From Hydrogenophilales bacterium 28-61-23 (GTDB lineage: Bacteria > Pseudomonadota > Gammaproteobacteria > Burkholderiales > Thiobacillaceae): 64,000 bases of DNA. Below the pieces are notes generated by a model, which was not told where the DNA came from, ran no database searches, and saw only the letters and a list, made by a program, of their open reading frames with translations. The stretch's first letter is position 1. Each line of letters starts with the position of its first letter. The position numbers and the translations under genes are program-made. The stretch is taken from contig NCGJ01000008.1 of NCBI GenBank assembly GCA_002281555.1, forward strand, positions 1-64,000, given 5' to 3'. Below, piece after piece: positions 3,794-36,579 of the stretch.

Positions 3794-5752
3794 CTAGATG
3801 CCGGAATCGGGCGCATCGGCAAAGAACGCCAGCGCCTCGGCGCGTTTACGGGTGCGTTTCATCGGCGGCAGCGCCTGCCAGATGCGGCGGCCATAGGGTT
3901 TTTCGACCAGGCGCGGGTCGCAGATCATCAGCACGCCGCGGTCGCTTTCGCTCCGGATCAGGCGGCCCGCGCCTTGTTTGAGATTGATCACCGCGTGCGG
4001 CAACTGGTAATCGAAGAAGGGATTCTTGCCGACCCGTTTCATCGCTTCCATGCGCGCGGCCAGCACGGGGTCGTCGGGCGGCTGGAACGGCAGGCGGTCG
4101 ATGACGACCAGAGACAGCGCGTCGCCGGCGACGTCGACGCCTTCCCAGAAACTCTGGCTGCCGAGCAGAACGGCATTGCCGAGGCGGCGGAATTCGTCGA
4201 GCAGATCGGTGCGGCTTCTTTCGCCTTGCAGCAACAACGGGTGATGCACGCCCGCTTCCGCCATGCGCGCTTGCAGCAGGCGATAGGCTTCGTTCATGGC
4301 GCGCAATGAGGTGAACAGCAGGAAAGCGCGGCCGCGACTGGCTTCCAGGATCGGCCAGGCGGCTTCGATCACCGCTTCGGTATAGCCGGGCGAGTTCGGG
4401 TCGGGCATCGCTTCAGGCACATACAGCAAGGCTTGCTTTTCGTAATCGAACGGGCTGTCCCAGATCGCGGTTTCCGCTTCCTTGAGGCCGATTTCGTGCA
4501 GGTAGTGGGAGAAATCCTTGCGCACCGAAAGCGTGGCGGAGGTGAAGATCCAGGCGCGCGCATCATTTTCGATCTGGCGCGCGAACAGTTCGCCGGCATT
4601 CAGCGGCGTGGCGTGGAACAGCACGGAATGGGTGCCGGCTTCCAGCCAGCGCACGATGGCGCCGTCCATGTTTTCGCCGGCATCGGCCGGCGGCGACAGC
4701 CAGCGTTCGATGCGTCCCGCCGCTTCGTGGCAGCGGGCATGCAGTTTTTCCAGTTCATCGGAGCGCTCGGCCTGGCTTTCCAGCAAGGCGTCGAGCTTGG
4801 CCAGCGCGCCGATCATGGCCGCCAGCGCTTCCCGGAATTCGCCGCGTTCGAGGCCGCGCGCCGCCGGCATGCGCGCCTGCGCCGGGCCCAGACTCAAACG
4901 AACCTGGCGCGCGGCGATTTCCAGTTCGCCGGTGGAGTTGGGCAGCTCGGGGAAGTCCGCCGCGTTGATCGAGGCCTCCACGCGCACGTCGCGGCAGAGA
5001 TCGAGCAGCATGCCGGTGGTCACGGTTTCGCCGAAAAACAGGCTGGCGGTGGCCGGCAGTTGGTGCGCTTCGTCGAAGATCACCGCATTGCTAGCCGGCA
5101 GCAGCTCGCCGGCACCCTCGTCCTTGAGCCAGACATCGGCGAAAAACAGATGATGGTTGACCACGACCAGATCGGCTTCCAACGCTTTCTTGCGCGCTTT
5201 CAACACGAAACAGGCTTTGTGCTGCGGACAATCTCCGCCCAGGCAGTTGTCGCGCGTGGATGTCGCCCAGCCCCAGGCCGGCGCGTCCTCCGGCACTTCG
5301 CCGCAGGCCATGCGGTCGCCCGAGTCGGTCACCGCCGCGTAGCGCGCGATGGCATGCAGATGCAGGGCATCCTCGCGGCTCTTGAAGCGGCCTTCCGACA
5401 GCGCGCGTTCCAGGTGATAGGGGCAGACGTAGTTGGCGCGGCCTTTCAGCAGCGCGACGGTGATCGGCCGCGCCAAAGCTGCCCGCACGGCGGGTATGTC
5501 GCGGTGGAAGAGCTGGTCCTGCAGGGTTTTGGTGCCAGTGGAAACGATGACCTTGCCGCCGAACAACAGCGTGGGCACCAGGTAAGCCAGTGTTTTTCCG
5601 GTGCCGGTGCCGGCCTCCGCGACCAGGCGCGCGCGCCGCTCCAGCGCCGAAAAAATGGTGCGCGTCATCTCAAGTTGCTGCACCCGCGGTCGATAGTGCG
5701 GTAGAACATTAGAAAACGGCCCGTTTTGCGAAAAAATTTCGTCGAGATCCAT
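3794..5752 (-). CDS. ATP-dependent Fe-S DNA helicase, YoaA/DinG type
   Basis: Superfamily 2 XPD-like 5'-3' helicase of 652 residues. Walker A is EAGTGTGKT (residues 46-54), the Walker B box is FDEAH (226-230), and the four Fe-S cluster Cys of the family are Cys110, Cys170, Cys175 and Cys181. The C-terminal half has LLGSQSFWEGVDVAGDALSL and LKQGAGRLIRS. Family members act in replication-associated repair and R-loop removal. Size and N-terminal organisation resemble YoaA more than DinG. It starts at MDLDEIFSQN, close to a divergent hydrolase gene. Confidence 0.9.
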   Translation of the reverse strand: MDLDEIFSQNGPFSNVLPHYRPRVQQLEMTRTIFSALERRARLVAEAGTGTGKTLAYLVPTLLFGGKVIVSTGTKTLQDQLFHRDIPAVRAALARPITVALLKGRANYVCPYHLERALSEGRFKSREDALHLHAIARYAAVTDSGDRMACGEVPEDAPAWGWATSTRDNCLGGDCPQHKACFVLKARKKALEADLVVVNHHLFFADVWLKDEGAGELLPASNAVIFDEAHQLPATASLFFGETVTTGMLLDLCRDVRVEASINAADFPELPNSTGELEIAARQVRLSLGPAQARMPAARGLERGEFREALAAMIGALAKLDALLESQAERSDELEKLHARCHEAAGRIERWLSPPADAGENMDGAIVRWLEAGTHSVLFHATPLNAGELFARQIENDARAWIFTSATLSVRKDFSHYLHEIGLKEAETAIWDSPFDYEKQALLYVPEAMPDPNSPGYTEAVIEAAWPILEASRGRAFLLFTSLRAMNEAYRLLQARMAEAGVHHPLLLQGERSRTDLLDEFRRLGNAVLLGSQSFWEGVDVAGDALSLVVIDRLPFQPPDDPVLAARMEAMKRVGKNPFFDYQLPHAVINLKQGAGRLIRSESDRGVLMICDPRLVEKPYGRRIWQALPPMKRTRKRAEALAFFADAPDSGI

Positions 5753-5797
5753 CCGGCGAGTTTATCCGAGGGGCCGCTTTGCCGAGAGGAGATGGCT

Positions 5798-6637
5798 ATG
5801 GTGCGATGGATATTTCTGGCGTTGGCCGCTGTTGCTGTTTCCGCTTTTGCCGAGCCGGTTGAGTTGCAGATGCCGAACAAGGTGGTGGCCAAGGCGGAGT
5901 ATCGGGCCGGCGAGGCGGGCAAGCCGACAGTGTTGCTGATGCATGGATTCCTGCAGACGCATGAATTCCCGACCATACAGCGGCTTGCCGATGGCCTCGC
6001 CAGCGCCGGTTATAGCGTCCTTGCGCCGACGCTGACGCTGGGGGTCACGCATCGAAAACAGAGTTTGGCGTGCGAGGCGATACATACCCACACCATTGGC
6101 GATGGCGCGAAAGAAATCGCGCAATGGGTGAATTGGCTGAAAGCCCGCAACGCGAGTTCCATTGTGCTGGTCGGCCACAGCTTTGGCAGCGTCGAAACTT
6201 TGGTCTACATGAGCGCGCAGCGTGACCCGCTGGTACGCAAACTGATCGGCGTCAGCGCAGTCGAGGGGCGCTTGAAAGTCGACGGGGCGCAGCGGGAAAA
6301 GGTGATCGAGGAGTTGCGGGCGCTGGTGAAAAAAGGCGACAAAAAGCTGTTTACGCAGGCATTCTCGTTCTGTCCGAAATATCTGGCCACGCCGCAGTCG
6401 ATGCTGTCTCACCTTGAGTGGACCCCGGAGCGGATCCTTAAGACAGCTTCCCACCTGCCTATTCCGGTTGTTTTCATCATGGGAAGCAAGGATGATCGAA
6501 TCGGGGTGAACTGGATCGATCAGCTCAGGAAATCCAGATTGAAAGTCCGAGTCATTGAGGGCGCCAACCACTTTATGGATGGAGATTTCGAATTCGATCT
6601 GCTGGATAACGTCTTGCTCGAACTCAAGTCGCTTTGA
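5798..6637 (+). CDS. Exported alpha/beta hydrolase
   Basis: 279 residues from the second of two close ATGs (5792 and 5798). The second is preferred because gagaggag lies 6-7 nt upstream, whereas it directly abuts the first. Residues 1-18 form a signal peptide (FLALAAVAVSAFA). A catalytic triad is visible: Ser128 in VGHSFGS, Asp232 or Asp233 in GSKDDRIG, and His258 in GANHFMDG; LLMHGFLQ supplies the oxyanion region. The substrate is unknown. The gene is divergent from the helicase gene and precedes the GGDEF-EAL gene by 46 nt. Confidence 0.8.
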   Translation: MVRWIFLALAAVAVSAFAEPVELQMPNKVVAKAEYRAGEAGKPTVLLMHGFLQTHEFPTIQRLADGLASAGYSVLAPTLTLGVTHRKQSLACEAIHTHTIGDGAKEIAQWVNWLKARNASSIVLVGHSFGSVETLVYMSAQRDPLVRKLIGVSAVEGRLKVDGAQREKVIEELRALVKKGDKKLFTQAFSFCPKYLATPQSMLSHLEWTPERILKTASHLPIPVVFIMGSKDDRIGVNWIDQLRKSRLKVRVIEGANHFMDGDFEFDLLDNVLLELKSL

Positions 6638-6683
6638 ATCCTTCCGGCAACGTCGTCTCTACATCTCCTTCCAAATCTGCGAT

Positions 6684-8912
6684 ATGAATTCGCTCAGTAT
6701 CGGTCGACTCTCGCTCATCTTCGTGCTGACGGCGGGCCTCCTGGTCATTGGTTTGGGCGGTTATTTCTGGCATGAAATTTCCCGGGCGACGGAGTCGCTC
6801 GGCGTCAGCGAGCATGAAAGCGCGCGCCAGGAGGTGGCTCAGGCCTTGCAGACTACAGTGCAACACATGCGGGAGAGCGGGCAGGCCCTGGCGAATTGGG
6901 ATGAAACCCGTCAGCAATTGGTCTTCCCCGAGTACTACGCGCTATGGCGCGATAACCGGGTGCGCGATGCCAACATGATGCCGCGCAGCGTGCTGGCGGT
7001 TGCGCTGTACGATAAATCGGGTTCGATTCTGGCCAAACAGGAGGGCGCGCCCGCACTGCCGGACCGATTGCCGGGCAAGGCGCCGTTATCGATCTATTTA
7101 TCTGTCGCTGGACAGCATCAGGTCGATTACTACATCCCGGTCCATGCCGATGCCGGGGCGGGCATTCTGCTTGGTTATCTGGGCCTTAAATTCGATCTGC
7201 TGAATGAATTGAAACGCGCCCATTCATTTCGCTATGCCGATTTGTCCGGTCTGGTCGTGCGGCTTCCCGGCAACAGCCGCATCGATATCGAAAACAGCCT
7301 TGCGCACATGCGCTTCGGCGTGTTGAAAAACACCAATCAGGTCGCGTTTCAGCGCTTGTTTCAGGATGCATTGTTGCGTCTGACCCTGGCCGTATTGGTC
7401 TCGCTGCTATTCGCCGCATGGCTGTTGAGAAATTTCCTGGTCCGGCCATTGCACAATTTCTCAAATGAAATCAACGCCATGCGGACGGTGAGCGCCAATC
7501 TTCCGCATGGGCTGATTTTCAAGACGCCGCTTCACATTACCGAACTCGAAAGCGTCCGCCAGGCATTCAGCGATTACCAGGAACGACTGGCCGCGCTGCA
7601 TGAAAGTCTGGCCCAGAACAGCCGCGATTTCTTCGATCAAGCCCGTCGCGATGCGCTCACCGGCGTCTACAACCGTCGCGCCTATGACGAAGACTGGCAC
7701 AGTCTGGGCGAAGATCGCAGGCTGACAAATGTCGCATTGCTGCTATTCGATTGCGATCATTTCAAGGCCATCAACGACACCTATGGCCACAGCGTGGGCG
7801 ATGCGGTGATCCGGGCGATTGCCACCAGTCTGCAAGCGGCATTGCGCGGGGGAGACAAGTTGTATCGGCTGGGTGGCGATGAGTTCTCCACGGTATTGGT
7901 CGATGCAGATCCATTACATGCCGAGGCGATCGCCGAGCGTTGTCTGGACCACCTGACGGCACACGATTTCCGCCAATACGGCATGAGCGAGCCGGCAACC
8001 ATCAGCATCGGCGTGGCTTATTCGCAAGCCGGCGAACTCAGTCTGAGCGAGCTGCAAAAGCGGGCCGATCTGGCCATGTATGCCGCCAAGCGTCCGGACA
8101 GCCCGAAAATGGTGATTTACAGCGAAGGCATGGGCGAACTGACCGCGCTGGTCGCCAACCAATCGATCAATGCCGTATTTCAGGCGATCCGTGACCCCGG
8201 TCTGCTCGAAATGACTTATCAAGCCGTGATGCACTTGCCGTTGGTGCAAAAGGAATACGTCGAAGCGCTGACCCGGATTCGTTTTAACGGCGAGCTGATC
8301 CGGCCGGATGCCATTTTCCCTATCGTGCAGGCGCGCAAGCTGGATTCGGAGTTTGATTTGGCCGTCATCCGCGCGATCGCGCGCGATATGGCGAATGGGT
8401 TTTTGCCGCCCGGGCAGGGGGTGTCCATCAACCTGTCCGCGCCCAGCATTGTCAATGCCAAGGTGGTCGATGCGATGCTGGAGTTGGTGCGCGTCCAGAG
8501 CGTCCATCCGGGCGGACGCAAGATCGTGGTGGAAATCACGGAAACCGCGCTGATTACCCAGATGGAACTCGCCTCCGCGAATATCGGCCAATTGCGTGCC
8601 GCCGGGGCGCTGGTCGCGCTGGATGACTTCGGTAGCGGCTACTCGTCCCTGCGCTATCTCGCGACGATGCCGGTCGATCTGGTCAAGTTCGACATCAGCA
8701 TGTTGCGTTTGCTGGAGAACGGCGATCCGCGCCAGAAACTGATCCTGGAAGAGATCGCCCAAATGGTGCTGACCGCCGGCTATGAACTGGTCGCGGAGGG
8801 CATCGAAACGCGCGCGCAACTGGACAAGATCATCGGCATGGGCTTCACCCACGCGCAGGGTTTCTACTTTGGCAAACCGGGCGAGGAAATCGAGCCGCTC
8901 GGTCATTCCTGA
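6684..8912 (+). CDS. Membrane GGDEF-EAL cyclic-di-GMP protein with periplasmic sensor
   Basis: 742 residues from ATG 6684; upstream codons in frame give no plausible N-terminus. Transmembrane segments at about 8-28 and 229-249 bracket a periplasmic region that looks CHASE4-like, followed by a HAMP-like linker. The diguanylate cyclase domain has an intact GGDEF (397-401) and an RxxD inhibitory site RGGD (388-391). The phosphodiesterase domain keeps EAL (527-529), the Asn in INLSAP, EITE, DDFGSGYSSL (647-656), VKFD, EGIET and QGFYFGKP. Both activities may therefore be retained; which dominates cannot be told. It is the last gene before convergent recG. Confidence 0.92.
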   Translation: MNSLSIGRLSLIFVLTAGLLVIGLGGYFWHEISRATESLGVSEHESARQEVAQALQTTVQHMRESGQALANWDETRQQLVFPEYYALWRDNRVRDANMMPRSVLAVALYDKSGSILAKQEGAPALPDRLPGKAPLSIYLSVAGQHQVDYYIPVHADAGAGILLGYLGLKFDLLNELKRAHSFRYADLSGLVVRLPGNSRIDIENSLAHMRFGVLKNTNQVAFQRLFQDALLRLTLAVLVSLLFAAWLLRNFLVRPLHNFSNEINAMRTVSANLPHGLIFKTPLHITELESVRQAFSDYQERLAALHESLAQNSRDFFDQARRDALTGVYNRRAYDEDWHSLGEDRRLTNVALLLFDCDHFKAINDTYGHSVGDAVIRAIATSLQAALRGGDKLYRLGGDEFSTVLVDADPLHAEAIAERCLDHLTAHDFRQYGMSEPATISIGVAYSQAGELSLSELQKRADLAMYAAKRPDSPKMVIYSEGMGELTALVANQSINAVFQAIRDPGLLEMTYQAVMHLPLVQKEYVEALTRIRFNGELIRPDAIFPIVQARKLDSEFDLAVIRAIARDMANGFLPPGQGVSINLSAPSIVNAKVVDAMLELVRVQSVHPGGRKIVVEITETALITQMELASANIGQLRAAGALVALDDFGSGYSSLRYLATMPVDLVKFDISMLRLLENGDPRQKLILEEIAQMVLTAGYELVAEGIETRAQLDKIIGMGFTHAQGFYFGKPGEEIEPLGHS

Positions 8913-28122: not shown

Positions 28123-29448
28123 TCAGAAGTGCCAGGTCAACTGCACGCTCAGGCGGTCGGCGAAGTTGTTGGCCACCACCGTGGCATTGGTGCGCTGGGC
28201 GGCGTTGGTGATGGTGCTCAGGTAGGGCACCTCCTGGTCGCGCCATTCGTAGTTCAGGGTCACCCGGGTGTTCTTGTCGATGAAGTACTGGGCGCCCAGG
28301 GTCCAGGTCTGGAACAGGCGATTGGCGGCCGGGTCGTCGGTGTTGCGGTCGTACTCGTCATAGCGCGCCTCAATCTCCCACTTGGGGTGGACGCGCCAGC
28401 CCGCCTCCAGATACCAGCCGTCCGCCTTGCCTAGGGGGGCGATGTTCAGGTTGTAGGGCGGTACCAGGCCGTTGGCGTTGGGCACCGGCGGGTTGGGGCC
28501 GCCCGGGATCATGCCTTCGCCGCGTAGGTATTCGCTGGTGACGCGCAGCGGGCCTTTCAGGTAGCGGGCGCCCACGCCTTCCCGGGTGCGGGTGTAGTCG
28601 CTGACGCCGAAACGGCGGTCGCCGCTCTGGCGCCACAGGAACACGTTGGCGTCTTCCCGCGCCACGCCCTTGCCGGCGCCGAACAGGTAGCTGGCCTGGA
28701 GCTTGAAGGTGAAGTCCTTGTTGCCGTCGCTGTCGCCAAGCATGTTCTCGATCTCGCCGCCGTTGGAGAGCATGGCGGCGTAGCCCAATTCCCACTTGCC
28801 CCGGTTGAAGGTGTCGAACACCTGCACACCCCAGTCGCGGAAGGCGTTGTTGCCGGCCACGGCCTTGGCGCATTGCAGGGTGGTGGCGCCGGCGATGGCG
28901 GTGCAGCCGGTGCCCGAGGAGGTCTGGAATTGGGTCTCCTGCACCAGGGCGCTGCCGACGAAGCTGTAGTACACGTACGAATAGGAGGTGGGATTGGGCA
29001 CCAGGGCCTCCTCGCTGGTGGGCAGCTTTAACAGGCCGGCGCGGATGCGTGCCCCGGGGATGTGGTTGAAGGTGACGGAGGCGTCGGTGAGCATCACGTT
29101 GTGCTGCACCGTGGTGAGGTTGTGGCCCAGATCGGTCAACACGAAATAGTTGATCTTGTCGCCGAGATTGCCGCGCGCGCCGAACTGGGCGCGCAGGAAC
29201 TGGAGCTGGGCCTTGTCCTCGTAGGTGGGGCCCACCAGGTTCTGGAACTGGTACTGGCCGTTGATGGCGGCGTTACCGCCTTGCATGGGCTCGGCGTCGT
29301 AATAGGTGTAGGTGGGCTGGACGAAGCCGAACGGCTTGAAGCGGCCGGAATCGGCCGGTTCGGTGCCTTGCAGTTGCACCCAGTTGGCGGCCAGGGCGGG
29401 CAGGGGCAGGCAGGTCGTCAGCAGGATGGCGATTTTTTTGATAGGCAT
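28123..29448 (-). CDS. Outer-membrane porin, OprO/OprP-like
   Basis: 441 residues with a signal peptide (MPIKKIAILLTTCLPLPALA) and alternating beta-strand pattern ending in aromatic residues (SVQLTWHF, C-terminal Phe for BAM recognition). FGFVQPTYTYY, LRAQFGARGNLGDKINYFVL and WELGYAAMLSNGG recall the Porin_O_P family of anion-selective porins. It is downstream of the periplasmic DsrE gene on the same strand (93-nt gap), so the two are probably co-expressed and may serve the same sulfur or anion-related task. Confidence 0.85.
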   Translation of the reverse strand: MPIKKIAILLTTCLPLPALAANWVQLQGTEPADSGRFKPFGFVQPTYTYYDAEPMQGGNAAINGQYQFQNLVGPTYEDKAQLQFLRAQFGARGNLGDKINYFVLTDLGHNLTTVQHNVMLTDASVTFNHIPGARIRAGLLKLPTSEEALVPNPTSYSYVYYSFVGSALVQETQFQTSSGTGCTAIAGATTLQCAKAVAGNNAFRDWGVQVFDTFNRGKWELGYAAMLSNGGEIENMLGDSDGNKDFTFKLQASYLFGAGKGVAREDANVFLWRQSGDRRFGVSDYTRTREGVGARYLKGPLRVTSEYLRGEGMIPGGPNPPVPNANGLVPPYNLNIAPLGKADGWYLEAGWRVHPKWEIEARYDEYDRNTDDPAANRLFQTWTLGAQYFIDKNTRVTLNYEWRDQEVPYLSTITNAAQRTNATVVANNFADRLSVQLTWHF

Positions 29449-29541: not shown

Positions 29542-30003
29542 TCAGGGCTTCAGGTAAACGAAGCCTTCCTTCGCCTGTAGCCGGCCGATCTCGGCCACCC
29601 CGGAAGGCACCACCTGGGCCTCCAGGATCACGGCACTGTCGTCCAGGTTGCGGCTCTTCAAGGTGTTGCGGCAGACGCGGAACTCCACGCCTTTTTCCTT
29701 GAGACCGGCCACTTGAGGTTCATAGGCATCCTTGTCGTCCTTGGCGTCGTTGAGCAGGAAGTCGATACCCTTGCCATGGGTCACCACCACGATCCTGGCG
29801 TTGGGGCTGGCGGACAAGTGGTTGTCCACGTTGCGCATGGCCACGCGGGCGACGCTGGCGTCATTGATGTGGTAGACCACCTTTTCCCGAGGCTCAACCG
29901 CCTGGGCGGCGATTTTGCTGGCCTTGGCCGGCGCGGCGGCCTGCGCGCCAGGCAGGATCAGGGCGGCGCTCAGCAGGACGGCGGATGGGGTAATGCGTTT
30001 CAT
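29542..30003 (-). CDS. Periplasmic DsrE-family protein
   Basis: 153 residues. Signal peptide 1-22 (LLSAALILPGAQA). Residues about 40-153 form a DsrE/F-like domain: KVVYHINDASVARVAMRNV, ARIVVVTHGKGIDFLL, LKEKGVEFRVCRNTLKSRNL, GFVYLKP. Cys111 is at the position used by DsrE-type proteins as a sulfane-sulfur acceptor or ligand site. The closest visible relative is the C-terminal domain of the anti-sigma gene on the other side of the divergent promoter. Function is unknown; sulfur binding is inferred from the family. Confidence 0.85.
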   Translation of the reverse strand: MKRITPSAVLLSAALILPGAQAAAPAKASKIAAQAVEPREKVVYHINDASVARVAMRNVDNHLSASPNARIVVVTHGKGIDFLLNDAKDDKDAYEPQVAGLKEKGVEFRVCRNTLKSRNLDDSAVILEAQVVPSGVAEIGRLQAKEGFVYLKP

Positions 30004-30078
30004 GGTCGTCTCCAGTCGGTTTAATGTTCAAGTGGGATACAAGCAGGCTATGCCACGCCGGTAGGACGATGCAGGTTG

Positions 30079-30114
30079 TCGAAGTATTCCAGCGTGGGGT
30101 ATGGAATATTTCGA
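30079..30114. promoter_or_regulatory. Inverted repeat in the dsrE / ECF-sigma divergent region
   Basis: Arms tcgaagtattcc (30079-30090) and ggaatatttcga (30103-30114) pair with one mismatch across a 12-base spacer, between the dsrE start (30003) and the sigma start (30164). It may be an operator, or two copies of a promoter element facing opposite ways. It argues for the ATG at 30164 rather than the one at 30101, which would lie within it. Confidence 0.5.
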
Positions 30115-30163
30115 CCCACCCTGCCGTCCTACTGCTCAATCTCCCTTGCTGGCGGATATTCCG

Positions 30164-30730
30164 ATGCGACATCTGTTTTCCCTGTTGAACTTTCCCGCCC
30201 GGCGCCGGTTGGAAGCTTTGCGGCCGCGTCTGCATCGCCTGGCCTATGCCTGGTGCCACGATGCCGTTCTGGCCGACGACCTGGTGCAGGACTGTCTGGC
30301 CAAGGCGCTGGTGCGCGGCGATCAATTGCGCGACGAACAGGCGCTGGAAAGCTGGCTGTTTTCCATCCTGAACAATTGCTGGCGCGACCATCTGCGCGCC
30401 CGGCGGGAGTTCGTGGATGTGGCGGAACTGGACGATGCCATCTTTTCCGATGCGCCCGGCCCGGAACAGAATTACGCCAGCCGCCAGACCACCCAGCGGG
30501 TCCGCCACGCCATCGCCAGCCTGCCTCTGGGCCAGCGCCAGGTCATCACGCTGGTGGATATCGAGGAATCGACCTATGCCGAGGTCGCCCGCATACTCGA
30601 GGTGCCGGTGGGCACGGTGATGAGCCGGCTGTCCCGCGCCCGGCTGGCGCTCAAGCAGCATTTCATGGTGGATCAGGCCGCCGGCGATCAGGCGATACGC
30701 GGTCAGATGACGATCAGGAGGGTGAAATGA
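30164..30730 (+). CDS. ECF RNA polymerase sigma factor
   Basis: 188 residues from ATG 30164 (an ATG at 30101 would add 21 residues and overlap the inverted repeat). Region 2: LRPRLHRLAYAWCHDAVLAD, DLVQDCLAKALV, SWLFSILNNCWRDHLR. Region 4: ASLPLGQRQVITLVDIEEST, YAEVARILEVPVGTVMSRLS. This is a compact extracytoplasmic-function sigma factor without extra domains. Its stop overlaps the start of the anti-sigma gene as ATGA, the standard pairing. Confidence 0.93.
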   Translation: MRHLFSLLNFPARRRLEALRPRLHRLAYAWCHDAVLADDLVQDCLAKALVRGDQLRDEQALESWLFSILNNCWRDHLRARREFVDVAELDDAIFSDAPGPEQNYASRQTTQRVRHAIASLPLGQRQVITLVDIEESTYAEVARILEVPVGTVMSRLSRARLALKQHFMVDQAAGDQAIRGQMTIRRVK

Positions 30731-31503
30731 GGGAACCACCGATGAGGGAATTGCCATTGACGGAAGTGGTGAAGGAAACGCTGACGCCCGAATACCTGAA
30801 CGCCTTCGTGGACGGCGAGCTGGCCGCCGATGAGCGCGCCCGCGTCATGGCGCGGCTGGAATCCGATCCCGAGTTCAAGGCGCGCGCCTGCGAGTTGCGC
30901 ACGCTCAAGGACATGGTCAAGGGCGCCTACGCCGAAGCGCCGACCGCGCCGGGCCGACTCGATGGCGGGCCGGCCGCCGGTCGATTCCGGTCGGGACTGA
31001 AACAGGCCATGGCCGCCGGCCTGTTGCTCGCGCTGGGCCTGGGCGGCGGCTGGCTGGCGCGTGACCGGGTCGGATCGGAGCCGGGCTTGGGCCAACTTTC
31101 CGGTCTGCCCGCCGGCTATCGGGTTTTCGCGCTGGCCGAAAAGGTGGATGCCGACAAGGTGATCCTGCATCTGGATTCCGGCGACCCGGAACGCCTCAGC
31201 GCCGTGCTCGATGCGGCCGAGAAACTCCTGGCGCAAAAGGGCGCTTCCGGCCGGGTCGAGATCGTCGCCAACAGCTTCGGACTCAACCTGCTGCGCGCCG
31301 ATGTCACGCCGCTGGCCGGGCGCATCGAGGCCATGGCGCGGCGACATGCCAATCTGAGTTTCGTCGCCTGCGGCCAGACTGTGGCGCGCTTGAAGCGCGA
31401 GGGTGTCAAGGTCGAGTTGCTGCCGGTCGTGCACAGCGCAAGTTCGGCAGTCAACGAGATCATCACGCGCATGGGCCAGGGCTGGATTTATGTAAAAGCC
31501 TGA
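30727..31503 (+). CDS. Anti-sigma factor fused to a periplasmic DsrE-like domain
   Basis: 258 residues from ATG 30727 with AGGAGG 5-6 nt upstream. Residues about 18-66 form an anti-sigma helical domain (LNAFVDGELAADERARVMAR) that lacks the zinc-binding His-Cys-Cys set (only Cys54). One transmembrane helix lies at about 91-111 (MAAGLLLALGLGGGWLA). Residues 143-258 are DsrE-like: KVILHLDSGDPERLSAVLDA, VEIVANSFGLNLL, NLSFVACGQTVARLKREGVK, GWIYVKA, with Cys215 at the equivalent of Cys111 in the free DsrE protein. The topology puts the DsrE part in the periplasm. It should hold the sigma factor at the membrane and release it on a signal; a sulfur-compound signal is inferred. Confidence 0.82.
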   Translation: MREPPMRELPLTEVVKETLTPEYLNAFVDGELAADERARVMARLESDPEFKARACELRTLKDMVKGAYAEAPTAPGRLDGGPAAGRFRSGLKQAMAAGLLLALGLGGGWLARDRVGSEPGLGQLSGLPAGYRVFALAEKVDADKVILHLDSGDPERLSAVLDAAEKLLAQKGASGRVEIVANSFGLNLLRADVTPLAGRIEAMARRHANLSFVACGQTVARLKREGVKVELLPVVHSASSAVNEIITRMGQGWIYVKA

Positions 31504-31559
31504 AGTTTCCTGAAAGCATGCCGATAGTGCGGAAGTTCAAACGAGAATTGGAGAACGGC

Positions 31560-32474
31560 ATGCTGGAAATAGGTCTTTACGGTTTGGGTCGCATGGGTGG
31601 CAACATGGCGCGGCGTTTGTCGCGCGGTGGCATTCGGGTGCACGCGCTGAATCGCAGTTTTGAAGTCACCCAAAAGCTGGCCGCTGAAGAGGCGAACATC
31701 ACGCCCTGCCGCGACGCGAAAGAAATGGTGGCTGGCCTCGCGGCGCCCCGCATCGTCTGGTTGATGCTGCCGGCAGGCGAGGCGACCGAAGCGGCGATCA
31801 CCGAACTCTCCGCGCTGCTGTCGCCCGGCGATCTGCTCGTCGACGGCGCCAACGGGTTTTATCAGGAGGCGATGCGCCGGTCCGAGCATCTGAGCGGGCT
31901 GGGCCTGAAATTCGCCGATGTCGGCGTCTCCGGCGGCGTCTGGGGCCTGGCCAACGGTTACTGTCTGATGGCGGGTGGAAGCGATCCAGATGTCGCGCGC
32001 CTGAAACCCTATCTGCAAGCCCTCGCGCCAACGCCGGAAACCGGCTGGCTGCATGCCGGCCCGGCCGGTTCCGGGCACTTCACCAAGATGGTTCATAACG
32101 GCATCGAGTACGGCATGATGCAGGCCCTGGCCGAGGGCTTCGCCCTGATGAGCGCCAAGCAGGAATTTCATCTGGACCTGGCGGCCATCTCGGAACTCTG
32201 GCGCCACAGCTCGGTGGTGCGTTCCTGGCTGCTGGACCTCTCCGCCGATTTCCTCAAGAACGACCAGAAACTGGAGGGCATCGCCCCGGTGGTGGCCGAC
32301 TCCGGCGAGGGGCGCTGGACCGCCCTGGAGTCGGTGAACCTGGGGGTGCCCACGCCGGTGATGAGCATGGCCCTGATGGCCCGCTTCAGCAGCCAGGGCA
32401 AGGGCGACTTCGCCAACCAGATGCTGACCATGATGCGCCAAGGTTTCGGCGGCCACGCGCTCGGTAAAGGGTGA
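31560..32474 (+). CDS. gndA: 6-phosphogluconate dehydrogenase, short decarboxylating type
   Basis: 304 residues from ATG 31560 (ggag 8 nt upstream). Rossmann motif GLYGLGRMGGNMARRL at the N-terminus, catalytic stretch GSGHFTKMVHNGIEYGMMQA, and DSGEGRWTALESVNLGVPTP. This is the about 300-residue form, lacking the long C-terminal half of E. coli Gnd. It produces ribulose 5-phosphate and reduced cofactor in the oxidative pentose phosphate pathway together with zwf, 106 nt downstream. Confidence 0.92.
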   Translation: MLEIGLYGLGRMGGNMARRLSRGGIRVHALNRSFEVTQKLAAEEANITPCRDAKEMVAGLAAPRIVWLMLPAGEATEAAITELSALLSPGDLLVDGANGFYQEAMRRSEHLSGLGLKFADVGVSGGVWGLANGYCLMAGGSDPDVARLKPYLQALAPTPETGWLHAGPAGSGHFTKMVHNGIEYGMMQALAEGFALMSAKQEFHLDLAAISELWRHSSVVRSWLLDLSADFLKNDQKLEGIAPVVADSGEGRWTALESVNLGVPTPVMSMALMARFSSQGKGDFANQMLTMMRQGFGGHALGKG

Positions 32475-32491
32475 CGGGTGAAAAATGAAAA

Positions 32492-32519
32492 GTGAAATGT
32501 GAAGCCCTTCACGTTTCAC
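32492..32519. repeat. Hairpin-forming repeat between gndA and zwf
   Basis: gtgaaatgtgaag (32492-32504) and cttcacgtttcac (32507-32519) pair with one mismatch around CC. No T-run follows, so it is unlikely to be an intrinsic terminator. The surrounding gtgaa/ttcac words look like a degenerate repeat tract and may influence gndA-zwf mRNA. Confidence 0.5.
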
Positions 32520-32580
32520 TGAAGCCGCAGGGCGGCGAGTCACGCTTCACCTTTCAGCCTTCTCTCAAGAGAGTACAGCC

Positions 32581-34062
32581 ATGTTCGATCAGGAAACCCC
32601 GCTTCCCCCGTGCAACTTCGTCATCTTCGGCGCCACCGGCAATCTGGCCACCATCAAGCTGCTGCCCGCCCTGTACCGTCTTGAGCTGGCCGGCAAACTG
32701 CCCGAGGGCCTCAATTTCGTCGCTTTCGCGCGCCGGGAGTGGGACGACGCCGGCTGGCGCGACAACGTGCGCAAGCTGCTGGCTGACAAGCTCAAGGCCG
32801 ATGGCGACGCACTGGAACGTTTTGTCAGCCGCTTCGATTACCTGCGCGGCGACCTGGACGACCCGGAGGCTTACCACCGCCTCAAGGAGGTGCTGGCCAA
32901 GCCCAAGCTCGGCGTGTGTTCCAACGTGGTGTTCTACCTGGCCATCAAGCCGACCGACTTCTCGGCGGTGATCAAGAATCTGGACGGCGCCGGGCTTTCC
33001 AAGCCGCGCGGTCTGCACCGCATCGTGGTGGAAAAACCGTTCGGCACCGACATCGAATCGGCCCAGATGCTGAACCAGCTCTTGCACCGCTATTTCGACG
33101 AGAGCCAGATCTTCCGCATCGATCACTACATGGGCAAGGAGACGGTGCAGAACCTGCTGGTGTTCCGTTTTGCCAACACCCTGATCGAGCCGTTGTGGAA
33201 CCGCAATTACATCGACCATGTGCAGATCACCGTGGCCGAGAACCTGGGCATCGAAAAGCGCGCCGATTACTACGACAAGGCCGGCGCCCTGCGCGACATG
33301 CTGCAGAACCACCTGATGCAACTGCTCACCCTGGTCGGCATGGAACCGCCGCCGGCCCTGGAGGCGGATGCACTGCGCGACGAGAAGGTGAAGGTGCTGC
33401 GTTCCATCCGCCCGATTTCAAAACGCTCGGTGCATGCGCATGCCTTCCGCGCGCAATACAAGGCGGGGCAGGTGAACGGCCAACCGGCCGCAGGCTATCA
33501 GGACGAGACGGGCGTCGAGCCGGATTCGGTCACCGAAACCTTCGCCGCCGCCAAGTTCTACATCGACAACTGGCGCTGGCGCGGCGTGCCGTTTTATCTG
33601 CGCACCGGCAAGCGGCTCAAGCAGGGCCTGTCCATGATCGCCCTGCGCCTGCGCCATCCGCCCCAGCAACTGTTCCGCGAGACGCCGCTGGAAACCCTGG
33701 AACCGAACTGGATCGTGCTGTCGATCCAGCCCGATGAAAGCATGCACATGGAAATCCACGCCAAGCAGCCCGGCCTGGACATGAACACGCGCGTGGTCAA
33801 ACTCAACGCCAGCTTCCGCAACCCGGACGAGAATCCGCTCGATGCCTACGAGGCGCTGCTGCTCGACGTGATCGAAGGTGACGGCACTCTGTTCATCCGC
33901 TTCGACGAGGTGGAATGGGCCTGGCGCGTGGTCGATCCGATCCTGAAGTACTGGGCGCAGGAACGCGATTTCATCCACACCTATGCCGCCGGCGGCTGGG
34001 GGCCGATCGAGGCGAACCGGCTGTTCGACGACGAGGATACCGAGTGGCGTAACGAGGTTTGA
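32581..34062 (+). CDS. zwf: Glucose-6-phosphate 1-dehydrogenase
   Basis: 493 residues. NAD(P) motif FVIFGATGNLATIKLLPALY at the N-terminus and the active-site signature RIDHYMGKETVQN. It opens the oxidative pentose phosphate pathway. EKPFGTD and TGKRLKQG are further family marks. A strong terminator follows. Confidence 0.96.
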   Translation: MFDQETPLPPCNFVIFGATGNLATIKLLPALYRLELAGKLPEGLNFVAFARREWDDAGWRDNVRKLLADKLKADGDALERFVSRFDYLRGDLDDPEAYHRLKEVLAKPKLGVCSNVVFYLAIKPTDFSAVIKNLDGAGLSKPRGLHRIVVEKPFGTDIESAQMLNQLLHRYFDESQIFRIDHYMGKETVQNLLVFRFANTLIEPLWNRNYIDHVQITVAENLGIEKRADYYDKAGALRDMLQNHLMQLLTLVGMEPPPALEADALRDEKVKVLRSIRPISKRSVHAHAFRAQYKAGQVNGQPAAGYQDETGVEPDSVTETFAAAKFYIDNWRWRGVPFYLRTGKRLKQGLSMIALRLRHPPQQLFRETPLETLEPNWIVLSIQPDESMHMEIHAKQPGLDMNTRVVKLNASFRNPDENPLDAYEALLLDVIEGDGTLFIRFDEVEWAWRVVDPILKYWAQERDFIHTYAAGGWGPIEANRLFDDEDTEWRNEV

Positions 34063-34165: not shown

Positions 34166-36319
34166 TCAGTCACCGTTCGGGCCGTTATGGCAGTCGTAGC
34201 AGGTCACCTTCTGGCCGGCGCTGTAGTTCACCGTCTTGCCATCGGCATTGAAGCTGCGCGCGGCCTTCGCGGTGGACAGGATGCCGCCGCGATAGTCGGC
34301 GCCGTGGCAGGCGGCGCAGGCGGTTTTGTTGTTTTCCGCATAGTCGCCGTGTTTGCCGACCCACGCGCTGCCGACCGTGTGCATGCCATGCGGGCCTTTG
34401 TCGGCGGTCAGAGGAACGCTCTTGTGGCAGGAGGCGCACTCGCCGATGGTGCCTTCGCGGCCCTGCACATCCTTGGCCAACACGTTGTCGTTGGCATGCG
34501 AGCTGGGGTACTCGGCATGGGTCGCGCCGTGGCAGGCCTCGCACTGCAAACCGCCGTGGCCCTTGCTGAAGCGGTACAGGTTCTTGCCGGCGACGGGGAC
34601 GTTGGCATTGGTGGCGTAGCGGGTGTCCAGCCACTTTTTCAGAATGCCGGTGGCGCTGACCGCGCTCAGTTCGCGCTTGCCGTCGTGGTGGCAGGACTGG
34701 CAATCGGGCTGATCCAGCCAGCCGGTGCGCGTGCTGCTGCCCACGTTGGACATGGTGCCGTGGCAACCTTGGCAATCGATCGCCGCTTTGCCATTGGTCA
34801 ATACGGCATTGCCCATGACGCCGCGCAGGCACTTGGTTTCCGAGCCCGGATGGCACTGGTAGCAAGCGCTGCGGTTGCCGATGCTGTCCAGCAGCTGGCC
34901 GCTGGTGGCGTCTTTGACCAGGGCGTGATTGCTGTGGATCGCCGCGGTCAGCGGTTTGATGCCGGCAATACCGGTGCCCGGCAACGCGTTCGAAGCATGG
35001 CAGGACGCGCACAGGATCGGCTTGCCGTTCATCGCGGTGGCATACAGGCCGGCGGCATCGTAGCCCAGGGTGTTGAGCGCATCCCGATAGACCTTGCTGG
35101 CGAGCGATTTCTCGTCATGCAGACGCAGGATGTTTTTCTTGTAATCGCGTTCGACATGCGCATCGTTGACCCAGCCAGCGGCGGGTTTGGCGGCCGCGCC
35201 GGAGTTGGAGGCGTGACAGGCGGCGCAGCTCATTTCATCGGAAACCGGTAGTACGACACGCGCTTGCGCCAGTTGTTTGCCGGTTGCGTCGCGCGCCACG
35301 ACCTTGACCATCGGATAAGGATTCTTGCGGCCGCTATCGTCATACGGCGTGATTGGAATGCCATCCGCGACAAACTGATTGCTGGCCGCATCCAGTTTCA
35401 GCGCCTGCGGCGTGAACGAGGCGGTGGCATTGCCGGTCAGGCCCATGCCGACAGGCAGATCGACGCCAAAGATGGATTTTGCGTACTGCCAGAAATTGGT
35501 TTTGGTTGAAGAAATGCTGTTGACCGAGCCGTCCGCGTCGGCCATCGCCTCGAAAGTCAGCGTGACACCCTGGGTGACCAACTTGTTGTTGCCGCTATCG
35601 ACCAGTTGCGCATGCAGGTTGTTGTATGGCGGCAGGATGGAGAAGACCGAATAGTCGCCATCCATACAGTGCATGCCGAGGTCATTCCAGGCCAGCAGGG
35701 TATGCGATGTGCCCGTTGTCGTCCCGGTGCCACCTCCCGTCGTGGCGGTCACGGTAACCGGGATGGAGAGTGTGGTTTTGCTGTCTTTGAGGGTGATTCG
35801 GGCTGTACCGGCGGCCTTGGCGGTCACCGTGGCTTTGGAACCAGACAACGCAACCGTGGCGACATTGGTGTTGGCGGAACTTGCACTCAGGTTGCCTGAA
35901 ACATTGCTCAGCGTGATGACCGAGGCTGCGCCAACGGCAAGATTCAGCGAGGTCGGGTTAGCGCTCATTATCGCCGTGGACTTGACCGTTACCGGAATGG
36001 TCAGCGTTGTCCGGCTGTCTTTGACCGTGAGTTGCGCGCTTCCGGCCGCTTTGGCGGTCACATTGATTTTTCCATTCGACAGGCTTGCCTCGACGATTCG
36101 CGTATTGCTGCTGGTCACGCGCAACTTGCCGGACACGTTGTTTAGCGCCACAACCGCGGTCGTGTTTACGACCAGCGACAATGAAGTCGGGGTGGCGGCC
36201 ATGACGGCGCTTGTTCTACTGCTACTTTCCGATTTCTGTTCGGCCAGCGTCGGCTGTGACAGGAAGAGCAGCGGTGCGATCAGCAGCGCCAACCAACGGA
36301 TGAATTTTGTGTGTGGCAT
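34166..36319 (-). CDS. Exported nine-heme c-type cytochrome with two Ig-like repeats
   Basis: 717 residues from ATG 36319. Signal peptide (IRWLALLIAPLLFLSQPTLA). Residues about 35-200 hold two tandem BIG2-like Ig repeats (LTIPVTVKSTAIMSANPTSL links them; each ends in TKxAGxAxxTxKDSxTTLxIPVTV). The rest carries nine CxxCH heme sites: CAACH, CASCH, CYQCH, CQGCH, CQSCH, CEACH, CASCH, CAACH, CYDCH. It is likely a periplasmic or surface electron carrier. It stands alone with a long divergent upstream region. No known named cytochrome is recognised. Confidence 0.88.
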   Translation of the reverse strand: MPHTKFIRWLALLIAPLLFLSQPTLAEQKSESSSRTSAVMAATPTSLSLVVNTTAVVALNNVSGKLRVTSSNTRIVEASLSNGKINVTAKAAGSAQLTVKDSRTTLTIPVTVKSTAIMSANPTSLNLAVGAASVITLSNVSGNLSASSANTNVATVALSGSKATVTAKAAGTARITLKDSKTTLSIPVTVTATTGGGTGTTTGTSHTLLAWNDLGMHCMDGDYSVFSILPPYNNLHAQLVDSGNNKLVTQGVTLTFEAMADADGSVNSISSTKTNFWQYAKSIFGVDLPVGMGLTGNATASFTPQALKLDAASNQFVADGIPITPYDDSGRKNPYPMVKVVARDATGKQLAQARVVLPVSDEMSCAACHASNSGAAAKPAAGWVNDAHVERDYKKNILRLHDEKSLASKVYRDALNTLGYDAAGLYATAMNGKPILCASCHASNALPGTGIAGIKPLTAAIHSNHALVKDATSGQLLDSIGNRSACYQCHPGSETKCLRGVMGNAVLTNGKAAIDCQGCHGTMSNVGSSTRTGWLDQPDCQSCHHDGKRELSAVSATGILKKWLDTRYATNANVPVAGKNLYRFSKGHGGLQCEACHGATHAEYPSSHANDNVLAKDVQGREGTIGECASCHKSVPLTADKGPHGMHTVGSAWVGKHGDYAENNKTACAACHGADYRGGILSTAKAARSFNADGKTVNYSAGQKVTCYDCHNGPNGD

Positions 36320-36579
36320 GACAACCTCTTTGGTGGATAGCCGCAATGGCGGTTTGAACACCCATGTCATGAACATGGATGTTGCGCAGGGTACGTGTAA
36401 AACCATTACACGTAAAATAAATTTGGATGAAATCTTTGTTGCGGGGCCGATTTAAATACCCTGAGCATGCTATTTGCATGCTGCTTTCCGGTCGCGGCAA
36501 GGCGCTGGGAACGCGTTGTAGGTTTAAGTGATTATTGCTGGGTGTGTGAAAATTGCTCATCTGTTAAAGTTGCGAGCTT

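Follow-up and report, generated by a model that had tools for sequence, protein, structure and literature searches.

What does an anti-sigma factor sense when its predicted periplasmic part has the fold of a sulfur-transfer protein? This question is raised by a locus in a 64,000-nucleotide stretch of DNA from Hydrogenophilales bacterium 28-61-23 (contig NCGJ01000008.1, positions 1 to 64,000; hereafter the window), where the gene for an extracytoplasmic function (ECF) sigma factor is followed by the gene for an anti-sigma factor with a DsrE domain (asDsrE) and is divergent from a gene for a soluble DsrE protein (sDsrE). All three genes, as described in an earlier annotation made from the sequence (the original prediction), were present. 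With moderate confidence, the locus is interpreted here as a switch for sulfur oxidation, made up of an ECF sigma factor and its anti-sigma factor, with the DsrE domain as the periplasmic sensor; judging from sequence comparisons, this switch is probably how its carriers sense their sulfur food. Thiosulfate sensing by sulfur-oxidising bacteria has been described as little known (PMC10451225). The window organism is itself very likely a sulfur oxidiser, since its genome contains a soxB match and, recognised by eye, dsrB-dsrEFH-dsrC.

The DsrE domain of the anti-sigma factor

The asDsrE gene (30727-31503, forward strand, as are all asDsrE features below) encodes 258 amino acids, and its ATG overlaps the stop codon of the sigma factor gene (30164-30730, forward strand). 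The sigma factor comprises regions 2 and 4 and little else, with matches to PF04542 (49.9 bits) and PF08281 (61 bits) that were both above the cut-off. Residues 1-85 of asDsrE (30727-30981) are predicted to form a cytoplasmic sigma-binding domain. Matches of this domain to zf-HC2 (18.2 bits, cut-off 22.2) and RseA_N (12.5 bits, cut-off 24) were weak, and zf-HC2 matched eight of 27 asDsrE relatives at E≤0.01; the structure model had three helices between residues 21 and 67, and Cys55 (codon 30889-30891) was invariant in the asDsrE alignment (A1). Residues 86-114 (30982-31068), a hydrophobic stretch by reading and a helix in the structure model, are the predicted membrane helix. With this one helix and a gene directly after that of the sigma factor, asDsrE has the features of a membrane anti-sigma factor, and we infer a topology that would place its C-terminal domain in the periplasm.

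The Pfam DsrE family (PF02635) gave no match to asDsrE even at E≤1, and matched six of the 27 relatives at E≤0.01. When asDsrE was compared with PDB sequences by phmmer, residues 144-257 matched MTH1491 (1l1s) at 9.9e-10, and a 27-row asDsrE profile matched the same protein at 3.6e-15. For residues 143-258 (31153-31500), the structure comparison that had been set beforehand as a possible refutation of the DsrE assignment came out in its favour: the predicted C-terminal domain had the same fold as 1l1s, 2hy5 and 2d1p in a VIA-align second look, in which folds that Foldseek ranks low could not appear. Cys215 (codon 31369-31371) was invariant in 27 of 27 asDsrE sequences and was located in the model at the end of a strand (210-215) and the start of a helix (216-224).

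The sDsrE gene (29542-30003, reverse strand) encodes a protein of 153 amino acids that is predicted to be secreted, having a signal-peptide-like start by eye. It matched PF02635 at 45 bits (cut-off 22.7) and 1l1s at E 5.1e-11, and Cys111 (codon 29671-29673, reverse strand) was invariant in the sDsrE alignment (A2). In the original prediction, the two DsrE domains share fold features and the sequences around their cysteines are set side by side; consistent with this, hhalign placed C215 opposite C111 when it aligned asDsrE to the sDsrE family (probability 99.4%).

Distribution and association with sulfur oxidation

A survey of genomes for the sigma/anti-sigma-DsrE pair, as suggested in the original prediction, was carried out on the 101 genomes of the window organism's group. 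Matches to asDsrE were found in 51 genomes, and 48 (the window genome included) carried full-length anti-sigma/DsrE fusions adjoining the sigma factor gene. Given the 47 further full-length proteins, the idea that the fusion arose by chance or from read-through was rejected. A scan of named genomes, with a closer 12-row alignment as the query, revealed 42 loci, in Thiobacillus (nine), Sulfuritalea (seven), metagenome-assembled genomes of Hydrogenophilales, Gallionellaceae and Rhodocyclaceae, one each of Thiohalobacter, Rhizobium and Acidobacteria, and some genomes with unspecific labels. The cultured strain Thiobacillus thioparus DSM 505, which belongs to the same family as the window organism, was a carrier, and its locus had the divergent sDsrE gene and both copies of the promoter motif described below.

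Presence of soxB was defined as a match at E≤1e-120, and a fusion was regarded as full length if its profile match started at or before position 12 and ended at or after position 230. In a sample of 300 genomes from the order, soxB was present in all 37 full-length carriers compared to 104 of the 263 other genomes (Fisher test, 4e-14); in a sample of 369 genomes from the class it was present in 65 of 66 carriers compared to 84 of 303 others (Fisher test, 3e-29). Shorter matches were dropped from the carriers, which removed 11 of the 48 order genomes and seven of the 73 class genomes with a match. In the group of 101 relatives, canonical soxB was matched in 44 of the 48 carriers, in some cases by a fragment. 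The distance between asDsrE and soxB was 5 kb or less in 11 of the 37 order-sample carriers, and the class sample contained at least three more carriers with asDsrE near soxB (G506, G517 and G616). For the putative envelope sulfur sensing suggested in the original prediction, support came from genomic association, in these samples and in the sox genes located behind the same motif.

Several class-sample genomes encoded more than one full-length DsrE anti-sigma factor, and G431, G482 and G555 encoded three each, which suggests parallel sensors with different targets.

Promoter motifs and candidate targets

Comparison of upstream regions revealed the motif GGAATA-N15..17-CGTC on both strands of the region between the sigma factor and sDsrE genes. 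In the window, both copies were perfect (GGAATA-N16-CGTCCTA) and were arranged back to back as predicted ECF promoters, one of the sigma/anti-sigma operon (30103-30131, forward strand) and one of sDsrE (30062-30090, reverse strand); no third copy was found in the window even at up to two mismatches. The open reading frame (ORF) listed for the sigma factor begins with an ATG at 30101, two bases ahead of the promoter match, and because of the position of that match the protein probably starts at the ATG at 30164. The window alone proves little, since 10 of 100 window shuffles reached two matches (up to two mismatches); the evidence is conservation. The motif was present in the sigma direction in 46 of the 48 loci (window included), 40 of them in the strict form, and in the divergent direction in 36 of the 37 loci with a divergent DsrE gene compared to one of the 11 without it, whereas mononucleotide shuffles gave 0.005 matches per region. 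This motif is presumably what the sigma factor recognises.

A strict motif search of the 101 genomes gave 59 sites in 36 genomes, 18 of which were off the sigma locus. Thirteen of the latter were read, those in G046, G005, G003, G027 and G044 being left out: five were ahead of secreted DsrE genes, four ahead of SoxB-like genes, one ahead of a second ECF sigma factor gene and three ahead of other genes, named by eye as an oxidoreductase-like, a TPR-like and an RND-like ORF. The SoxB-like sites of the window's own genome (G000) and of G010 were identical and so not independent. The third perfect site in the own genome was 46 nucleotides upstream of the start of a 693-amino-acid SoxB-like protein (L168, G000:C24, ORF 4617-6755, reverse strand). 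That this gene is the canonical soxB was rejected (186.8-196.7 bits, cut-off 550); the canonical soxB was located at G000:C3. The SoxB-like protein, which is secreted and has similar paralogues in many relatives, may have sulfur groups bound to proteins as its substrate.

In G141, G182 and G282, which belong to one genus, a relaxed divergent motif was found ahead of soxY (160, 160 and 155 bits, respectively; cut-off 125), and in G126 a relaxed motif was located 206 nucleotides ahead of a sulfur transporter gene (PF04143, 205.8 bits). The gene order in G080 was sigma factor, asDsrE, soxY, soxZ, soxA, soxX and soxB, with SoxY, SoxA, SoxX and SoxB above their cut-offs and SoxZ identified by eye. 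In G517, a DsrE-like gene and soxX-Y-Z-A-B were located beside the sigma/asDsrE pair, X, Y and B being identified by model and the other two sox genes by eye; the divergent genes were a DsrE-like gene (by eye) and genes for a porin, a thioredoxin-like protein and a sulfur transporter. That the motif precedes genes for DsrE carriers, Sox proteins and a sulfur transporter is in keeping with thiosulfate or Sox-bound sulfur as the signal.

Two further observations were made at such loci. In G080 (L038/L278), soxZ was apparently duplicated, with an identical 103-amino-acid ORF across the sigma factor gene (5398-5709 and 3176-3487 in L038), and the second soxZ-like ORF adjoined a TsuA-like gene. Two proteins of L312, called DsrE-like here from a resemblance by eye, were assigned to no family by NCBIfam or Pfam.

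Proposed mechanism

In the proposed mechanism, the anti-sigma factor would hold the sigma factor at the inner membrane by means of its cytoplasmic N-terminal domain. Sulfane sulfur derived from thiosulfate, either free or passed on by a carrier (SoxYZ or sDsrE), would load Cys215 of the periplasmic DsrE domain, and this loading would change the domain or its assembly so that the sigma factor is released. The freed sigma factor would drive its own operon, the gene for the secreted DsrE protein (perhaps together with the porin gene) and the SoxB-like gene in its own genome; in other lineages it would drive the sox operon or sulfur transporters. A bolder form of this proposal, to which we give slightly less than an even chance, is that a widespread class of anti-sigma factors in sulfur-oxidising Gammaproteobacteria (in the GTDB sense) senses a protein-bound intermediate of its own pathway, with a periplasmic Sox/DsrE relay handing sulfane sulfur to the DsrE domain of a domain-swapped ECF26-type anti-sigma factor.

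Several results weigh against a switch for sulfur oxidation. Both Fisher tests ignore relatedness. No canonical soxB was found in one class-sample carrier (G406) or in the full-length carriers G009, G018, G053 and G055, of which G009 is 96% complete. No alignment was obtained by hhalign with two cytoplasmic DsrE-family proteins of the own genome, so that Cys215 is equated with the catalytic cysteine of DsrE by fold position only. The motif was derived from the very loci, themselves related, in which it was afterwards counted. A reversed-pattern control gave 26 sites in the 101 genomes compared to the 18 off-locus strict sites; with one mismatch allowed, there were 33 sites compared to 34 control sites in 12 genomes, and four compared to three in the own genome. 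Since the off-locus sites were no commoner than the control, numbers alone show no extra targets, and only positions speak. The strict search of the own genome found no motif at the canonical soxB (G000:C3), and a relaxed scan of 12 sox-adjacent loci gave 26 matches, of which the six inside genes look like chance matches.

Origin of the sensor domain and the nature of the signal

In a phylum sample of 239 genomes, two full-length fusions were found, both in the window's own family. Outside the class, several anti-sigma-like proteins matched asDsrE over its N-terminal half only. Six such proteins were read; they shared the N-terminus and the membrane helix, and had a different C-terminal domain that was alike among the six. 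These six, which are taken to be alphaproteobacterial, resemble asDsrE by sequence, a likeness that is not an ECF26 or COG5662 assignment. The simplest reading of these sequences is that the sensor domain of an anti-sigma factor was swapped for DsrE.

The alphaproteobacterial ECF26 circuits (RpoE4/RpoE1 of Sinorhizobium meliloti and SigE/RpoE1 of Starkeya novella) respond to sulfite (PMC3511301, PMC6527743). Their consensus consists of a -35 box, GGAAT, and a -10 box, CGTC (PMC6527743), and the motif found here agrees with it, an agreement that covers the two boxes and not the spacer length. Sulfite sensing and sigma release by ECF anti-sigma factors were described as unknown (PMC6527743). Like these circuits, its nearest known counterparts, the window locus has an ECF sigma factor with a co-encoded anti-sigma factor, GGAAT/CGTC boxes, a proposed control of sulfur-compound oxidation and an apparently small regulon. 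Unlike them, it has DsrE as the predicted periplasmic part, its candidate targets are sox, DsrE and transporter genes, and its carriers are found mainly in the window's own class.

Were the locus a DsrE version of the RpoE4/SigE circuits, the signal could be sulfite itself, with Cys215 converted to an S-sulfonate or a persulfide on it cleaved by sulfite. The boxes and the sulfite response of the ECF26 circuits point in this direction, as does the match of the N-terminal half to anti-sigma factors of other lineages in the phylum sample. We nevertheless consider sulfite an unlikely signal: the targets (DsrE, soxY, SoxB-like and Sulf_transp) belong to families that handle thiosulfate or sulfane sulfur, none of the 13 off-locus sites inspected by eye had a recognisable sulfite dehydrogenase, and the C-terminal domain is unlike that of the six relatives.

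The role of the soluble DsrE protein

Because its gene has the same promoter motif as the sigma factor gene, sDsrE is a likely target of the switch, and because a divergent DsrE gene was found in 37 of the 48 loci and was absent from 11, it is regarded as a target with a possible feedback role. In G012, G013 and G029, genomes that are 58, 84 and 89% complete, respectively, no sDsrE match reached E≤1e-5. Ten off-locus sDsrE-type genes in nine genomes had no motif within 300 nucleotides, in a check that left out others, for example in G005, G008, G077, G082 and G098; sDsrE therefore also works outside the switch. Three of the nine genomes own the switch (G026, G043 and G056), and in G070, also one of the nine, a different ECF sigma factor gene was located nearby, its product 31% identical to the window sigma factor. 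The original prediction had paired sDsrE with asDsrE as a soluble homologue that could compete for or deliver the ligand. This idea is the weaker part of the original prediction, given the 11 loci without a divergent copy and the ten motif-less genes elsewhere; competition or delivery would be a possible role of sDsrE. In one genus (L077, L074, L075 and L078), the divergent sDsrE begins with a lipobox-like LTGC, LAGC or ITGC (by eye), and may therefore be a membrane-anchored lipoprotein there.

Since DsrE proteins assemble into oligomers, the DsrE domain could alternatively be a docking site, at which hetero-oligomers with a secreted DsrE protein or a Sox carrier would switch asDsrE and their sulfur load would be the signal; release may then need proteolysis. 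DsrE-type proteins form hetero-oligomers, TusBCD being heterohexameric according to the annotation of a structure match, and the homology of asDsrE and sDsrE, the frequency of the divergent gene and the motif-bearing secreted DsrE paralogues elsewhere in five relatives are consistent with docking. This explanation seems somewhat less likely again than sulfite, given the loci and the three genomes in which the soluble partner was not found and the invariance of Cys215 in asDsrE itself, which plain docking would not need. A general sensor of envelope thiols or oxidative stress, common in sulfur oxidisers by coincidence, is very improbable. It would fit the few carriers without canonical soxB, a lone conserved periplasmic cysteine that could react with oxidants or metals, and the position of gnd, which follows the anti-sigma gene at 17 of the 47 other loci. 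Against it stand the association with sox genes found in both samples, the targets of the sox and DsrE kinds, and the sulfur-transfer fold of DsrE.

Relation to known sulfur-sensing and sulfur-transfer proteins

A loading of Cys215 with sulfane sulfur would give the asDsrE switch a feature in common with SoxR and sHdrR, ArsR-type sulfane-sulfur repressors of sox genes (PMC10451225, PMC12423496), namely the induction of sox genes when thiols detect sulfane sulfur. SoxR, which senses sulfane sulfur (PMC10451225), is a DNA-binding repressor with two cysteines, whereas asDsrE is a membrane anti-sigma factor with one periplasmic cysteine and would read the periplasm, where Sox chemistry occurs. DsrE3A has been reported to react with tetrathionate to give Cys-S-thiosulfonate (PMC4175335). 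The asDsrE domain has the same fold and a conserved cysteine, like the sulfur- or thiosulfate-transfer proteins DsrE/DsrF/TusD and DsrE3A; unlike them, it forms part of an anti-sigma factor and is expected on the periplasmic side of the membrane. To our knowledge, none of these proteins is the sensor domain of a regulator. No description of a DsrE-domain anti-sigma factor was found in the literature searched, the coverage of which was limited, and a mention in the main ECF classification paper is possible.

If the proposed mechanism is correct, a fold for sulfur transfer has become a switch that acts on transcription across the membrane, and it joins the sensor domains of anti-sigma factors; many beta- and gammaproteobacteria could control their sulfur-oxidation genes in this way. 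Available for study at this locus are a defined sensor domain with a single candidate residue, a distinct promoter motif that can be scored, and a cultured carrier, T. thioparus DSM 505.

Neighbouring genes and related loci

A gene for an outer-membrane porin of the phosphate-selective type (Porin_O_P; 28123-29448, reverse strand; PF07396, 57.8 bits) was located 93 nucleotides downstream of sDsrE on the same strand, and 13 of the 47 other loci had a similar porin on their divergent side; the porin gene is possibly a member of a divergent operon with sDsrE. Downstream of the anti-sigma gene, on the same strand, were gnd and zwf (31518-34062, forward strand), which encode 6-phosphogluconate and glucose-6-phosphate dehydrogenases. 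Since gnd directly followed the anti-sigma gene in the 17 other loci mentioned above, transcription of the sigma operon may read through into the genes of the pentose phosphate pathway. Scans for sigma-70 promoters and terminators gave nothing above shuffled sequences. A possible outer-membrane cytochrome is encoded at 34166-36406 (reverse strand); this large protein has a multihaem region of the MtrC/MtrF-like kind and, near the N-terminus, weak Ig-like matches.

Two related loci were observed in other genomes. In G055, three strict copies of the motif were found at a second locus (L176, G055:C156), which contained a different ECF sigma factor gene, a SoxB-like gene, two genes that are DsrE-like by eye and one for a MauG/MbnH-like di-heme protein. 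At L309 (G316:C139:35500-42500), a related ECF sigma factor gene adjoined a molybdoenzyme/cytochrome b pair that was MsrPQ-like by eye, and the neighbouring anti-sigma factor matched asDsrE over its N-terminal part only.
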